Assembly (NCBI RefSeq): GCF_000615975.1
Contig: NZ_BAMP01000011.1
Span: 1-64,000, forward strand
DNA from: Nitratireductor aquibiodomus NL21 = JCM 21793
GTDB lineage: Bacteria; Pseudomonadota; Alphaproteobacteria; Rhizobiales; Rhizobiaceae
Length of the DNA stretch: 64,000 bases
Direction of reading: 5' to 3'
Of this stretch, positions 56,974 to 64,000 are shown piece after piece. The notes below the pieces were generated by a model, which was not told where the DNA came from, did no database searches, and worked only from the letters and a program-made list of their open reading frames with translations. Each line of letters starts with the position of its first letter. The first letter of the stretch is position 1. A program made the position numbers and the translations under genes.

Positions 56974-57648
56974 CTATTTCAGGCGTTTCGGGCGGGGTTC
57001 GGAAAGCTCGCCACGCAGACGGCGGTCCAGATAGTCCGAGCACTCCCCGATCAGTTCGTCGATGCGATCGGTATAGAAGTGGTTCACGCCGGGCATGGTT
57101 TTCTGGGTAATCGTAATGCCCTTCTGTGACTGCAGCTTGTCAACGAGGCCCTGAACGTCGGCGGGCGGTGCAACCTTGTCGGCATCCCCATGAATGATCA
57201 GACCGGATGACGGGCAGGGGGCCAGGAAGGAGAAGTCGTAGAGATTCGGCTGTGGCGATATGGACATGAACCCCTCGATCTCCGGGCGACGCATCAGAAG
57301 CTGCATGCCGATCCATGCACCGAAGGAGTACCCGGCGATCCAGCAGTTCTTCGAATCGGGATGCAGCGACTGCACCCAGTCGAGCGCTGCAGCCGCATCC
57401 GACAGCTCGCCGGTGCCGTGATCGAAGGCGCCCTGGCTTCGGCCGATGCCTCGGAAGTTGAAGCGCAGCGTGGTGAAGCCCCGGCTCTGGAACATGTAGA
57501 AGAGATCGTAGACGATCTTGTTGTTCATCGTGCCGCCGAAATGCGGATGTGGATGGAGGATGAGCGCGATTGGAGCGTTCTTTTCCTTCGACGGCTGATA
57601 CCGTCCTTCCAGACGTCCGGCAGGCCCGGCAAAAATGACCTCAGGCAT
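56974..57648 (-). CDS. Alpha/beta hydrolase, YsgA/AXE1-like short serine hydrolase
   Basis: 224 residues. Catalytic triad pattern: nucleophile GYSFG, acid in HGDADKV and His in GVNHFYTD; IALILHPHPHFGGTMNN carries the oxyanion strand. The family of short hydrolases with HPHP and FRGIGRSQG is common in alphaproteobacteria and of unknown substrate. It precedes tyrS on the same strand, 60 bases away, with a hairpin between. Confidence 0.88.
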   Translation of the reverse strand: MPEVIFAGPAGRLEGRYQPSKEKNAPIALILHPHPHFGGTMNNKIVYDLFYMFQSRGFTTLRFNFRGIGRSQGAFDHGTGELSDAAAALDWVQSLHPDSKNCWIAGYSFGAWIGMQLLMRRPEIEGFMSISPQPNLYDFSFLAPCPSSGLIIHGDADKVAPPADVQGLVDKLQSQKGITITQKTMPGVNHFYTDRIDELIGECSDYLDRRLRGELSEPRPKRLK

Positions 57649-57710
57649 GAGTACTCCACATTGGGCATCGCAGCATATCGAGTTACAAAGGGAACGATGT
57701 TCCTTAACCC

Positions 57711-57738
57711 TTGACGCGACGCCGACGCCTCCATAGAA
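57711..57738 (+). promoter_or_regulatory. Promoter-like pair before the suf operon
   Basis: TTGACG at 57711-57716 and ATAGAA at 57733-57738 with 16 bases between, matching alphaproteobacterial housekeeping promoters loosely (CTTGAC .. CTATAT). It lies directly before the Irr-box candidate. Confidence 0.5.
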
Positions 57739-57743
57739 GCTAG

Positions 57744-57760
57744 TTTAGAATTGTTCAAAA
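57744..57760 (+). promoter_or_regulatory. Irr-box (ICE) candidate at the suf operon
   Basis: TTTAGAA TTG TTCAAAA, one base from the palindrome consensus TTTAGAA-N3-TTCTAAA that I recall for Irr in rhizobia. Position immediately downstream of a promoter-like pair fits repression by haem-free Irr when iron is scarce. Confidence 0.7.
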
Positions 57761-57785
57761 ATGATGATGCGCAAGCGATCATCAT
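57761..57785 (+). promoter_or_regulatory. Inverted repeat next to the ICE candidate
   Basis: ATGATGAT GCGCAAGCG ATCATCAT: perfect 8-bp arms around 9 bases, with an inner CGC/GCG pairing. It could be a second regulator site or an RNA hairpin in the leader of the suf mRNA. Confidence 0.45.
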
Positions 57786-57909
57786 GTCGGCAAGCCGGGT
57801 AAATAGGACGGCTCGCCCTGAAAGTTCAAGGAAATTACGTCACTGCGGCCAAGTTTGGCCTGGAAGGCGTGAAGCAGACAGCGGATTCGCGGAGAAAAGC
57901 GGAAGGTCT

Positions 57910-59085
57910 ATGTCGGCAACCCGGGCATATCTCGACTTCAATGCCAGTGCGCCGCTTCTCGAGCGGGCACGGGTGGCGATGCTTGACGCGCTGTCGATGC
58001 CGGCGAATCCCTCGTCGGTTCATACCGAAGGGCGGGAAGCCCGTCGCGTGCTGGAAGACGCACGCAGGCACGTTGCCCGACTGGCTGGCGCGCGTCCCGA
58101 GCATGTGATCTTTACGTCCGGCGCAACCGAGGCTGCGGCAATGCTGCTCACCCCGCGCTGGAAAATGGGGCGGTCACCGCTCGGGTTCTCGGCACTTTAT
58201 GTGAGTGCTTCTGACCATCCGTGCGTTTTGAAGGGCGGGCGCTTTTCTCCAAGCCAGATCAAGACGATACCGGTGCGGCCTGACGGTTTGGTCGACCTTG
58301 TGGAGCTGGAAACCCTGCTCGCGGCGCATGACAACAATGCCGGTCTCCCGCTGGTTGCCGTGCACGTGGTCAACAATGAAACCGGCATTGTTCAGCCGGT
58401 AGAGGACATTGGCCGACTGGCCAAGGCCCACGGTGCTACCACCGTGTTTGATGCCGTGCAGGCTGCAGGGCGTATTCCTGTATATATTTCATCGGGTTAC
58501 GCTGACTACATCATTCTTTCTTCGCACAAAATCGGCGGGCCCAAGGGGGCTGGCGCCGTGGTTGGAAGTGCGGACCTGATGATGCCGGAGCCGCTGATTC
58601 ACGGCGGCGGCCAGGAAAAGGGGCATCGCGGGGGCACTGAAAATCTCGCTGCCATTGCCGGTTTTGGCGCTGCTGCTGCCGAGGCATTTGAAGGGCTGGG
58701 CCGCATTGCGGCGCTTTCCACCATGCGGGACCGATTCGAGGCCGCTATTCTGAAGCATGTGTCGGATGCCGTGATCCATGGCCGCGACGTGCAGCGGGTC
58801 GCTAACACGAGCTTCTTTTCCATTCCCGGCATGAAGGCGGAAACTGCCCAGATCGCGTTCGATCTCGGCGGCGTTGCGCTGTCAGCGGGCTCTGCCTGTT
58901 CCTCCGGCCGGGTCGGTCCCAGCCATGTGCTGCAGGCTATGGGACAGGGCGACGAAGCAAGTGCATTGCGGGTTTCCATCGGACACGCGACGACCGAACA
59001 GGATCTGGTGCTGTTCGACGTGGCTCTGGCCGGTATTGCGAAGCGGCGAAAGAATGCCGCGGGAACCGGGATTCAGGCTGCGTAG
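57910..59085 (+). CDS. Cysteine desulfurase, NifS/IscS type
   Basis: 391 residues. Supplies sulphur from cysteine through a PLP enzyme: aspartate-aminotransferase fold with FTSGATEAAAML, Lys in LSSHKIGGPKG, SIGH and the mobile catalytic Cys in SAGSACSSGRVGPSHVL. It is not SufS (a second, distinct enzyme later in the operon), so the operon has two desulfurases, as usual for rhizobial suf. ATG 57910 has GGAAGG ahead; the frame's earlier codons lack family similarity. sufB follows after 183 bases. Confidence 0.93.
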   Translation: MSATRAYLDFNASAPLLERARVAMLDALSMPANPSSVHTEGREARRVLEDARRHVARLAGARPEHVIFTSGATEAAAMLLTPRWKMGRSPLGFSALYVSASDHPCVLKGGRFSPSQIKTIPVRPDGLVDLVELETLLAAHDNNAGLPLVAVHVVNNETGIVQPVEDIGRLAKAHGATTVFDAVQAAGRIPVYISSGYADYIILSSHKIGGPKGAGAVVGSADLMMPEPLIHGGGQEKGHRGGTENLAAIAGFGAAAAEAFEGLGRIAALSTMRDRFEAAILKHVSDAVIHGRDVQRVANTSFFSIPGMKAETAQIAFDLGGVALSAGSACSSGRVGPSHVLQAMGQGDEASALRVSIGHATTEQDLVLFDVALAGIAKRRKNAAGTGIQAA

Positions 59086-59138
59086 CGTGGTCGAAAGGAA
59101 AAAATCGATGGTGAAGAGAGTAAAAATGGAGAAAAAGA

Positions 59139-59155
59139 CACATATTTAATATGTG
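59139..59155 (+). promoter_or_regulatory. Perfect inverted repeat before sufB
   Basis: CACATAT TTA ATATGTG, 7-bp arms and 3-base centre, in an AT-rich patch 114 bases before the sufB start. No known motif of iron or cluster regulators is recognised with certainty. Confidence 0.45.
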
Positions 59156-59268
59156 ACCGGATGAAACGTCCGCTCCGAAGCACTACATCCGGTTTGCAAC
59201 AAGGCAATCAGGGTGTGCACAATTTGAAGACGGCCGGGCCTTGACCCCGGCATGGATGGAGAACGCAT

Positions 59269-60792
<1,524 letters not shown>

Positions 60793-60819
60793 GGCCGGCG
60801 CATTTGTTTGGAAAAAATC

Positions 60820-61574
60820 ATGCTTGAGATCAAAAACCTGCACGCCCGCATCGCCGAGGACGGCACCGAGATCATCCGTGGCCTCAACCTGACCGTGAGG
60901 GCCGGCGAAGTGGCCGCGATCATGGGGCCGAACGGCTCCGGCAAGTCCACGCTGTCCTACATTCTTGCCGGTCGCGACGACTATGAGGTGACCGAGGGCG
61001 AGATCCTTTACAATGGCGAGTCCATTCTGGAAATGGATCCGGCAGAGCGTGCCGCCGCCGGCATTTTCCTTGCCTTCCAGTACCCGCTGGAGATTCCGGG
61101 CGTTGCACGATGGAGTTCCTCAAGACCGCCATTAACGCGCAGCGCAAGGCGCGTGGCGAGGAGGAGCTGAAGATCCCCGAGATGCTGAAGCGCGTGCGTA
61201 CCGCAGCCGACGAGCTCGACATGAGCATGGACATGCTCAAGCGTCCGCTCAATGTCGGTTTCTCCGGCGGTGAGAAGAAGCGGGCCGAAATCCTGCAGAT
61301 GAAGCTTCTGGAGCCAAAACTCTGCGTTCTGGACGAGACCGATTCCGGCCTCGACATCGATGCGCTGAAGATCGTCGCCGATGGCGTGAACGCCCTGCGT
61401 TCGCCGGATCGTGCCGTGCTGGTGATTACCCACTACCAGCGTCTTCTCGACTACATCGTTCCCGACACGGTTCACGTTCTCTACCGCGGCCAGGTGATCA
61501 AGTCTGGCGACAAGGATCTGGCGCTTGAGCTGGAGAAGAACGGTTACGCCGGCGTCATCGACGCAGCCGCTTGA
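60820..61574 (+). CDS. sufC: SufC, Fe-S cluster assembly ATPase (one frameshift)
   Basis: About 252 residues when corrected. ABC-type ATPase of SufBCD: Walker [10 protein letters not shown], signature [14 protein letters not shown], Walker [17 protein letters not shown] and H-loop [12 protein letters not shown]. The frame breaks near 61105: GTTGCACGATGG should read GTTGC-C-ACGATGG, giving [15 protein letters not shown]. One C lost. As SufC is essential here, a sequence error is likelier than a pseudogene. ATG 60820 chosen over an in-frame TTG 60808. Confidence 0.95.
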
Positions 61575-61583
61575 GGTGACGAG

Positions 61584-62855
61584 ATGAACCTTCATGCTCA
61601 AAACACGCTGACGGAGGCCGAGACGGCGCTGGTCAACGGCTATTCCAGCCGTTTTTCCGACCTGCCCGGCGATGCCGATGTCACCGTCCGTCGCGATGAG
61701 GCGCTCGAGCTTCTCAAGCAGGGCCTGCCCACGCGCCGCGTCGAAGCCTGGCATTACACCGACCTGCGCCGGCTTCTCTCCGTCGTTCCGGATTTCAAGC
61801 CGGTCGCCAATGCCGAGGCCGTTGCGCCGCTGATCGAAAACGCGCTCGTCCTGCCTGTGCTGAACGGCACTGCGCATGGCCGCGAGGCAGGACCCGAAGG
61901 GCTCACGGTCGCAACGCTCGCCGACAAGCTTCAGGAAGGCGCGCTGCCTGCCGAATGGCTGACGGCTTCCGACCGGTTCGACGCTGTCGGCGCGATCAAT
62001 GCTGCCTTCGTTTCGGATGGCTACTGGCTCGACATTGCCGAAGGTGCGGAGCTTGACCGCCCGATCGAGCTTCAGAATATCCATGCGGGCGGTCAGGTGC
62101 ATGGCCGTTTCGTGGTCAATGCGGCAGCCGGTTCAAAGGCGACCATCATCGAGCGCCAGACCGGTGCCGGTGATGCGCTTGCATCGTCCGTCACGCATCT
62201 GGACGTTGCCGATGGCGCGAATGTGCTGTGGATCCTGCTTCAGGAGCAGCCGGACGATGCGGCCTATCTTGGCCAGTTTTCGGCTTCGCTTGGCAAGGAT
62301 TCGAGCCTCACACTCTTCATCATGAACGGCGGCGGCAAGCTGGTTCGTCAGGAAGTGAAGGTTGTGGCGCGGGGCGAAGGCTCCGAGTTCAAGCTTCGCG
62401 GCGTGAACCTGCTCGGCGGTGAGACCCATTGCGACGTGACCATGGTGCTCGATCACCTGGCACCCGACACGGTCTCCACCGAAACGTTCCGCAATGTCGT
62501 AACGGGCAAGGCCAATGGTGTGTTTCAGGGCCAGATCCGCGTTGCGAAGGTCGCTCAAAAGACCGACGCCAAGATGGCCTGCAACACGCTTTTGCTGACC
62601 GATGAAGGCGGATTCTCTTCGAAGCCGGAACTCGAGATCTTCGCCGATGATGTGGCCTGCGGCCATGGCGCGACGGTGACCGATATCGAGAAAGAGCACC
62701 TCTTCTACCTGATGGCGCGCGGCATTGACGAGAAGACCGCACGCGGTCTGCTGGTCAAGGCTTTCGTGGCCGAGGTCATCGAGGAGCTTGAGGACGAAAC
62801 CGTGATCGAGGCGCTGGAGGCCAGGCTGGTCGACTGGTTCGCCGAGCACGGCTAG
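61584..62855 (+). CDS. sufD: SufD, Fe-S cluster scaffold subunit
   Basis: 423 residues. SufB paralogue completing the scaffold: RVEAWHYTDLRRLLSV, HLDVADGANVLWILLQEQ, LDHLAPDTVSTETFRNVVTGKANGVFQGQIRVAKVAQKTDAKMACNTLLLTDEGGFSSKPELEIFADDVACGHGATV. ATG 61584, nine bases after sufC's stop, in the same operon. Its TAG stop is the first three bases of a RIME-like repeat. Confidence 0.96.
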   Translation: MNLHAQNTLTEAETALVNGYSSRFSDLPGDADVTVRRDEALELLKQGLPTRRVEAWHYTDLRRLLSVVPDFKPVANAEAVAPLIENALVLPVLNGTAHGREAGPEGLTVATLADKLQEGALPAEWLTASDRFDAVGAINAAFVSDGYWLDIAEGAELDRPIELQNIHAGGQVHGRFVVNAAAGSKATIIERQTGAGDALASSVTHLDVADGANVLWILLQEQPDDAAYLGQFSASLGKDSSLTLFIMNGGGKLVRQEVKVVARGEGSEFKLRGVNLLGGETHCDVTMVLDHLAPDTVSTETFRNVVTGKANGVFQGQIRVAKVAQKTDAKMACNTLLLTDEGGFSSKPELEIFADDVACGHGATVTDIEKEHLFYLMARGIDEKTARGLLVKAFVAEVIEELEDETVIEALEARLVDWFAEHG

Positions 62856-63014: not shown

Positions 63015-64000
63015 ATGGACCAGAAGGTCGACACTATGCGTTATGACGTTGAAGCCGTTCGCCGGGATTTTCCCATCCTGGCGCGAGAGGTTTACGGCAA
63101 GCCGCTCGTCTATCTCGACAATGGCGCGTCGGCGCAGAAACCGCAGGCGGTGATCGATGCGATCACGCATGCCTACAGCAATGAATACGCCAATGTTCAT
63201 CGTGGCCTGCACTTTCTCTCGAACGCCGCTACGGATGCCTATGAAAAGGTGCGTGAAACGGTCCGGCGCTTCCTGAATGCGGAAAGCACCGATCAGATCA
63301 TTTTCACCAAGTCGGCCACCGAGGCGATCAACACCGTCGCCTATGGTCATGCGATGCCGAATATCGGCGAAGGCGACGAGATCGTTCTGTCGATCATGGA
63401 GCATCACTCAAACATCGTGCCCTGGCATTTCCTGCGCGAGCGCCATGGTGCGAAGCTCGCCTGGATCCCGGTCGATGAGGAAGGGGTGCTCACGGTCGAG
63501 GCGTTCGAGAAGACGCTGACCGACAGCACGAAGCTCGTCGCCATCACACATATGTCGAATGTGCTCGGCACCGTCACGCCGCTCAAGGAGATCATTCGGA
63601 TCGCCCATGAGCGCGGCATTCCGGTTCTGGTCGATGGCAGCCAGGGCGCTGTCCACCTGCCGGTCGACGTGCAGGCGCTCGACTGCGATTTCTATGTCTG
63701 CACCGGGCACAAGCTCTACGGGCCTTCCGGCATTGGCGTGCTCTATGGCAAGAAGGAGCGCCTTGCCGCCATGCGGCCCTTCCAGGGTGGCGGCGAGATG
63801 ATCGAGGACGTGACGCTCGACAACGTCACCTACAACGATCCGCCGCACCGTTTTGAAGCCGGTACACCGCCCATCGTGCAGGCGATCGGGCTTGGCGCGG
63901 CGCTGGAATATATCGAAGGCATTGGTCGCGAGGCGATTGCGGCTTACGAGGCCGATCTGGTGCGCTATGCGCATGACCAGCTTGGCCGCATCAATTCGCT
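63015..64000 (+). CDS. sufS: SufS, cysteine desulfurase (partial, cut by the window edge)
   Basis: First ~329 residues of SufS, group II desulfurase. PLP site region with VYLDNGASAQKPQAVIDA, HRGLHFLSNAATDAY, FTKSATEAINTVAY, SIMEHHSNIVPWHFL, VDGSQGAVHLPVDVQAL, the PLP Lys in TGHKLYGPSG, and GGGEMIEDVTL. It hands sulphur to SufE-type acceptors or directly to SufBCD. Start ATG 63015 is preceded by GGGGTTCGAA. It follows a RIME-like repeat by 60 bases. The catalytic Cys region lies beyond the window. Confidence 0.95.
   Translation, partial: MDQKVDTMRYDVEAVRRDFPILAREVYGKPLVYLDNGASAQKPQAVIDAITHAYSNEYANVHRGLHFLSNAATDAYEKVRETVRRFLNAESTDQIIFTKSATEAINTVAYGHAMPNIGEGDEIVLSIMEHHSNIVPWHFLRERHGAKLAWIPVDEEGVLTVEAFEKTLTDSTKLVAITHMSNVLGTVTPLKEIIRIAHERGIPVLVDGSQGAVHLPVDVQALDCDFYVCTGHKLYGPSGIGVLYGKKERLAAMRPFQGGGEMIEDVTLDNVTYNDPPHRFEAGTPPIVQAIGLGAALEYIEGIGREAIAAYEADLVRYAHDQLGRINS

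Follow-up and report, generated by a model that had tools for sequence, protein, structure and literature searches.

The DNA upstream of the suf operon in the window (the complete 64,000-nucleotide stretch analyzed, G000:C197:1-64000) is probably a control region that the operon shares with a divergent hydrolase gene, in which an Irr operator lies on the suf start, two promoters face each other, and a hairpin is located in the overlap of their transcripts. The window belongs to a draft genome (207 contigs, 86.6% complete), and the nearest named loci by sufS2 similarity are two from Nitratireductor (L008 and L009, 79% identity). The operon is ordered sufS2 (from 57910), sufB, sufC, sufD, and sufS. 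The features of the region and the operon are as follows.

56974 to 57648, minus strand: uncharacterized divergent alpha/beta-hydrolase gene, its predicted promoter being the opposite-strand one (Pfam Hydrolase_4 and Abhydrolase_1, above cutoff)
57711 to 57716, plus strand: suf promoter -35, TTGACG (alignment; near-fixed distance to the ICE box)
57733 to 57738, plus strand: suf promoter -10, ATAGAA (aligned block), with a start predicted from spacing at about 57745
57744 to 57760, plus strand: Irr (ICE-type) box, asymmetric variant TTTAGAA-N3-TTCRAAA (direct reading, conservation, shuffles)
57761 to 57785, no strand assigned: inverted repeat ATGATGAT-N9-ATCATCAT, a hairpin between the two predicted starts (repeat finding, folding statistics)
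57800 to 57805, minus strand: opposite-strand -10, TATTTA, with a predicted start at about 57793 (C-N-TA-W at fixed spacing from TTGAA, 80/81 loci)
57824 to 57829, minus strand: opposite-strand -35, TTGAAC (TTGAA in register, 80/81 loci)
57910 to 59085, plus strand: sufS2, IscS/NifS-type cysteine desulfurase, first gene of the operon (Aminotran_5, 164 bits; NifS/IscS models match below their cutoffs)
59269 to 60792, plus strand: sufB (NF008773, 921 bits, above cutoff)
60808 to 61574, plus strand: sufC, in two reading-frame pieces, 60808-61170 and 61110-61574 (SufC models match both)
61584 to 62855, plus strand: sufD (TIGR01981, 258 bits, above cutoff)
63015 to 63998, plus strand: sufS-like cysteine desulfurase gene, continuing past the window end (reading frame; named by eye from the sequence)

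In the proposed mechanism, a housekeeping-type promoter (-35 at 57711, -10 at 57733) would start suf transcription at about 57745, and Irr, made or active in iron- or heme-poor cells, would bind the operator on that start and block initiation. A second promoter approximately 50 bp downstream, on the other strand, would drive the hydrolase gene, such that the first ∼49 nt of the suf and hydrolase transcripts would be complementary, and the inverted repeat in the middle of this overlap could fold in either RNA. With no counterpart here of the RirA box found at Rhizobium-type loci, Irr may be the main iron input in this lineage.

The TTGACG/ATAGAA pair was located where the preliminary description had placed it, by direct reading and by script, with a 16-nt spacer. 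The TTGAC core is retained in 81/81 loci; its first base precedes the ICE box by 33 nt in 73 loci and by 29 to 34 nt in all 81. A scan of 57600-57920 for sigma-70 promoters of the E. coli type found none, the consensus being that of E. coli, and the promoter assignment therefore rests on conservation.

The Irr ICE consensus is a palindrome resembling TTTAGAA-N3-TTCTAAA. The box in the window, TTTAGAA-TTG-TTCAAAA (TTTAGAATTGTTCAAAA), is one base removed from the palindrome, as had been recognized from the first inspection of the sequence, and boxes of the TTTAGAA-N3-TTCTAAA form were recovered at mbfA in the same genome. Allowing ≤2 mismatches, it is the sole match to TTTAGAANNNTTCTAAA in the window; 100 dinucleotide shuffles gave a mean of 0.03 such matches, with 3/100 shuffles containing one. 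For comparison across genomes, the best 80 of 342 matching loci were taken as the near set (81 when the window's locus is counted). The box is present in 80/80 of these loci, 115 to 170 bp before the sufS2 start codon, with one mismatch in 79 and two in the remaining one, although the loci are related and do not constitute 80 independent events. At the level of the order, 31/57 loci with both the hydrolase and sufS2 have a box at ≤2 mismatches with base 14 free (including one doubtful match, L151, that overlaps the hydrolase start), compared with a mean of 0.38 and a maximum of 2 in shuffled controls; at this threshold, the box was not found in the other 26. The earlier claim of a promoter and an Irr box before suf was thus upheld at 80/80 loci, in a genome that encodes both Irr and RirA, and the iron-regulator reading of the box stands as what we infer from these sequence patterns. 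Because the box covers the predicted transcription start, a bound repressor would be expected to block the operon.

The same box recurs in the genome. In total, 8 places lie within one mismatch of TTAGAANNNTTCTAA, against 2 for a reversed-pattern control; a search with the exact letters of the window and 3 mismatches allowed gave a smaller contrast (8 matches at 7 places versus 3 in the control). Two of the 8 places precede mbfA (NF045676, 578 bits), one precedes a solute-binding-protein gene on contig C136, one precedes an Nfu gene, and one is the suf box itself. The others lie in a LysR-type/catalase intergenic region, before grpE, and beside a response-regulator gene, and the last two may be chance matches. 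The C136 gene is presumably fbpA; the profile scan identifies it as a solute-binding protein only. RirA is encoded in the genome (NF008886, 267 bits), and a C-terminal piece of Irr on contig C153 scores 147.2 bits to NF045678, for which the whole-protein cutoff is 150. Frame breaks are present in this irr gene (L105), in sufC (near 61100), and in the C136 solute-binding gene (L090), and the occurrence of breaks in all three points to assembly errors in the draft genome.

The suf box departs from the palindrome in a consistent manner, a feature that the preliminary description did not report. Base 14 is G in 44 and A in 37 of the 81 near loci and is never T; among 30 order-level loci, it is G in 16, A in 7, T in 5, and C in 2. 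The variant TTTAGAANNNTTCRAAA occurs 20 times in 25 genomes, compared with 3 for the reversed-pattern control, and 17/20 occurrences, the window's own included, are between the hydrolase gene and sufS2. For the perfect palindrome, 18 occurrences were found, spread over 15 of the 25 genomes; the 15 occurrences examined are at a solute-binding gene (7), mbfA (5), or neither (3), and none is at suf (Fisher p 2.9e-7 for the asymmetric variant at suf versus the perfect palindrome, among genomes that are related). Perfect palindromes are found at suf in other families (order-level loci L123, L147, and L148, and L172 from another order). The predicted suf operator is, on this evidence, an asymmetric ICE variant specific to its gene, with one perfect half on the promoter side and the other half off at a fixed position (TTCRAAA). 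The imperfect half could make this a deliberately weaker site, at which suf would be shut off later than mbfA. It is possible, if somewhat less likely, that the asymmetry is instead kept for a reason other than affinity, such as a signal that overlaps it early in the transcribed stretch, in that the deviating base would be at about +13 of suf, beside the hairpin, and is A or G in 81/81 near loci. The T found there in 5/30 order-level loci indicates that such a constraint is not absolute, and nothing speaks directly against it. If the weaker-site reading is true, a one-letter, gene-specific operator change would be a simple handle on the ranking of Irr targets.

The second iron regulator proposed earlier for suf, RirA, lacks its usual box here. 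TGA-N9-TCA overlaps the -35 in 61/61 Rhizobium-type loci and is found in 0/20 of the window and 19 allied loci (Nitratireductor, Chelativorans, Mesorhizobium, Pseudaminobacter, Phyllobacterium, and Brucella types, with one MAG included). A RirA box in the inverted repeat or elsewhere upstream was likewise rejected as a candidate, as the 400 bp preceding the window's start codon lack TGA-N9-TCA. The motif is present upstream of rirA in the same genome (L096), where an ICE-like box lies alongside it. RirA could nonetheless act at suf in the window, because only 5/10 RirA ChIP peaks in S. fredii carry TGA-N9-TCA according to the accessible part of PMC8822346. In 30 order-level loci, TGA-N9-TCA or a looser Rrf2-like site was detected in 7/10 with a hydrolase-sufS2 gap of >500 bp and in 3/20 without, a post hoc comparison of small numbers; gaps of this length probably hold a gene such as iscR. 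The distribution suggests an old Rrf2 site that was used first by IscR and later by RirA and that the window's lineage has lost.

Downstream of the Irr box, positions 57800-57829, which the preliminary description had passed over, look like a minus-strand promoter for the divergent hydrolase gene. Read on the minus strand, they contain TTGAAC-N18-TATTTA (or N17-CTATTT). TTGAA and C-N-TA-W were located by script at one spacing, with a variable spacer, in 80/81 near loci; in the exception, L030, the script chose another place, and the block is visible in the alignment. Promoter patterns picked after inspection of the loci match the antisense strand in 40/41 near and 10/28 far loci and the sense strand in 1 and 0, respectively. 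With a looser pattern, far-set matches were within the range of the shuffles (7 versus a mean of 3.4 and a maximum of 8). The hydrolase gene is divergent from suf in 80/80 near and 57/60 order-level loci, and it lies beside suf in 9/20 loci from other orders, corresponding to 9/10 of those with sufS2 in the stretch. A literature search for the divergent hydrolase together with suf returned no report, and suf starts were not found in the available portions of papers on transcription start sites in agrobacteria or on the S. meliloti Hfq proteome. It is unlikely that the block is instead an element of the suf leader or a regulator site. It does lie within the suf leader, and suf and the hydrolase gene are both present at every near locus, where their contributions are inseparable. 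Such an element would not readily account for two conserved minus-strand cores held at one spacing around a variable spacer, for the bias toward the antisense strand, or for the mapped P5 promoter of RSP_0444 in R. sphaeroides, as described in the part of PMC6956336 available. Since the candidate hydrolase promoter reads leftward, it would face the suf promoter, and the two transcripts should overlap by ∼49 nt.

The inverted repeat lies within this predicted overlap. Its arms (ATGATGAT at 57761-57768 and ATCATCAT at 57778-57785, with a 9-nt gap) are 100% complementary by repeat search, and a script also confirmed the perfect 8-base arms noted at first inspection. The arm letters vary between loci, even inside Nitratireductor, and pairing is kept on average. 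Shuffle-based statistics were used because MAFFT misplaced the arms of L010 and L011. Among 41 representatives drawn from the 81 loci at <75% identity, the folding z-score is lowest at +18 to +47 relative to the ICE box (mean, -1.44; 54% below -1), with near-set values of -1.43 for the sense and -1.73 for the antisense strand. At the same place, the far set (28 loci from 23 other families) has values of -0.84 and -1.20, the lowest at any other offset tested being -0.63 at -40, and stems of at least 5 pairs are found in 50% of far-set loci versus 22% in shuffles. Single hairpins reach p≤0.05 in only 15/41 representatives (the window's at 0.045), and stems counted at offset -20 are more numerous among the near loci because of the ICE palindrome itself. 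The repeat thus looks like a hairpin conserved in structure and not in letters. A search of 57640-57960 against Rfam gave no family match up to an E value of 10, and no intrinsic terminator (GC stem plus T run) was found on either strand of 57600-57920; the idea of an antisense terminator was rejected on this result.

The plainest reading of the hairpin is as a 5′-end element of one or both messages. A more specific form, in which it acts in a single one of the transcripts, as a 5′-end stabilizer or a pause signal, falls somewhat short of an even chance: the repeat is directly at the predicted 5′ ends and has structure without sequence conservation, whereas the signal is on both strands and the scan detected no terminator-like T run. 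Divergent transcripts that overlap are known as excludons, which the locus resembles in the complementary 5′ leaders of two divergent genes and from which it differs in that the predicted overlap is short and mutual regulation is conjectural. Mutual control of this kind, with the complementary suf and hydrolase leaders pairing as their hairpins meet loop to loop, is a doubtful reading of the repeat. The repeat is within the predicted overlap in near and far loci alike, and either strand can fold, the antisense with a slightly better score. Against mutual control, the accessible text of PMC6956336 reports that in R. sphaeroides P5 increased the activity of P2 when in cis, whereas antisense RNA was without effect when provided in trans. 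A second protein operator stacked with Irr, for instance for an iron or Fe-S regulator, is most improbable and was dropped, since, despite the perfect 8-base arms in the window and a distance 3′ of the start that would suit a repressor, a sequence-reading protein would keep the letters, which vary while pairing does not, and the repeat contains no TGA-N9-TCA; the preliminary description was wrong on this point, and its core find, an Irr box before suf, is correct, ordinary, and of a known kind.

That Irr controls suf is established, and what is new lies in the hairpin, the gene-specific operator, and the absent RirA box. In R. leguminosarum, suf is regulated by Irr and RirA (PMC5863699, as excerpted). 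The window resembles the Rhizobium system in the operon, the Irr box before sufS2, and the presence of Irr and RirA genes, and it differs in lacking TGA-N9-TCA on the -35. The closest parallel is the isc-suf locus of R. sphaeroides, where the accessible text of PMC6956336 describes promoter P2, for which an Irr box is predicted from -13 to +1, and, on the opposite strand, P5 for RSP_0444, a putative hydrolase gene; P5 was found by differential RNA sequencing (dRNA-seq), and the iscR mRNA is complementary over its first 28 nt to the P5 transcript. Shared with the window are the Irr box at the start site, the divergent hydrolase, an opposite promoter 3′ of the start, and overlapping 5′ ends, the sequence of the window containing both the divergent hydrolase gene and a candidate for the opposite promoter. 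The window differs in lacking iscR and in its longer predicted overlap (∼49 nt versus 28 nt), and the text searched from that paper makes no mention of a hairpin in the overlap.

The published data bear on the direction of the iron response in different ways. In the sections available of PMC6956336, Irr of R. sphaeroides bound P3 but, in vitro, failed to bind the P2 region with the predicted Irr box, and P2 activity in an irr mutant under iron repletion was approximately 2-fold down, not up. Repression by Irr fits the elevated suf transcripts of R. sphaeroides irr mutants, in which the increase is greatest under low iron (PMC3413700, in part). In S. fredii, a species of the type with a RirA box, suf transcripts rise when iron is low (PMC6386902, from the part available), which counts against such repression, because Irr acting alone as a repressor predicts a fall.

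A broader reading, which we put forward only tentatively, is that the face-to-face arrangement of suf and the hydrolase gene is an ancient, order-wide module. The half-degenerate Irr operator would time suf shutoff, the structure-only hairpin in the ∼49-nt overlap would couple the two messages, and a site of the Rrf2 type (IscR/RirA) at the -35 would have been lost in the window's lineage, with the result that suf would answer to heme through Irr and not to Fe-S status. If this is true, one essential operon would be wired differently in close relatives, by Irr and RirA in Rhizobium types and by Irr without a RirA box in Nitratireductor, Mesorhizobium, Chelativorans, and Brucella types, and the difference would predict opposite suf responses to low iron.

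Several minor features were observed in and beyond the leader. Positions 57784-57806 are a near-copy of the sufS2 start-codon sequence at 57910-57932, 126 bp downstream (ATGTCGGCAASCCGGGYAWATMK). An open reading frame in the leader, starting at ATG 57784 or TTG 57751, was set aside, since coding-like conservation was not seen when the alignment was inspected by eye. The sufS2-sufB gap (59086-59268) contains a promoter-like block, GCACTACATC, at 59180-59189 and a hairpin, GCCGGGCCTTGACCCCGGC, at 59233-59251, directly 5′ of the sufB ribosome site; both are similar in the relatives displayed, and the block may be the counterpart of the R. sphaeroides internal promoter P3. A perfect palindrome in the same gap, CACATATTTAATATGTG at 59139-59155, is identical in L008 and L009 and differs in the other 19 relatives aligned.
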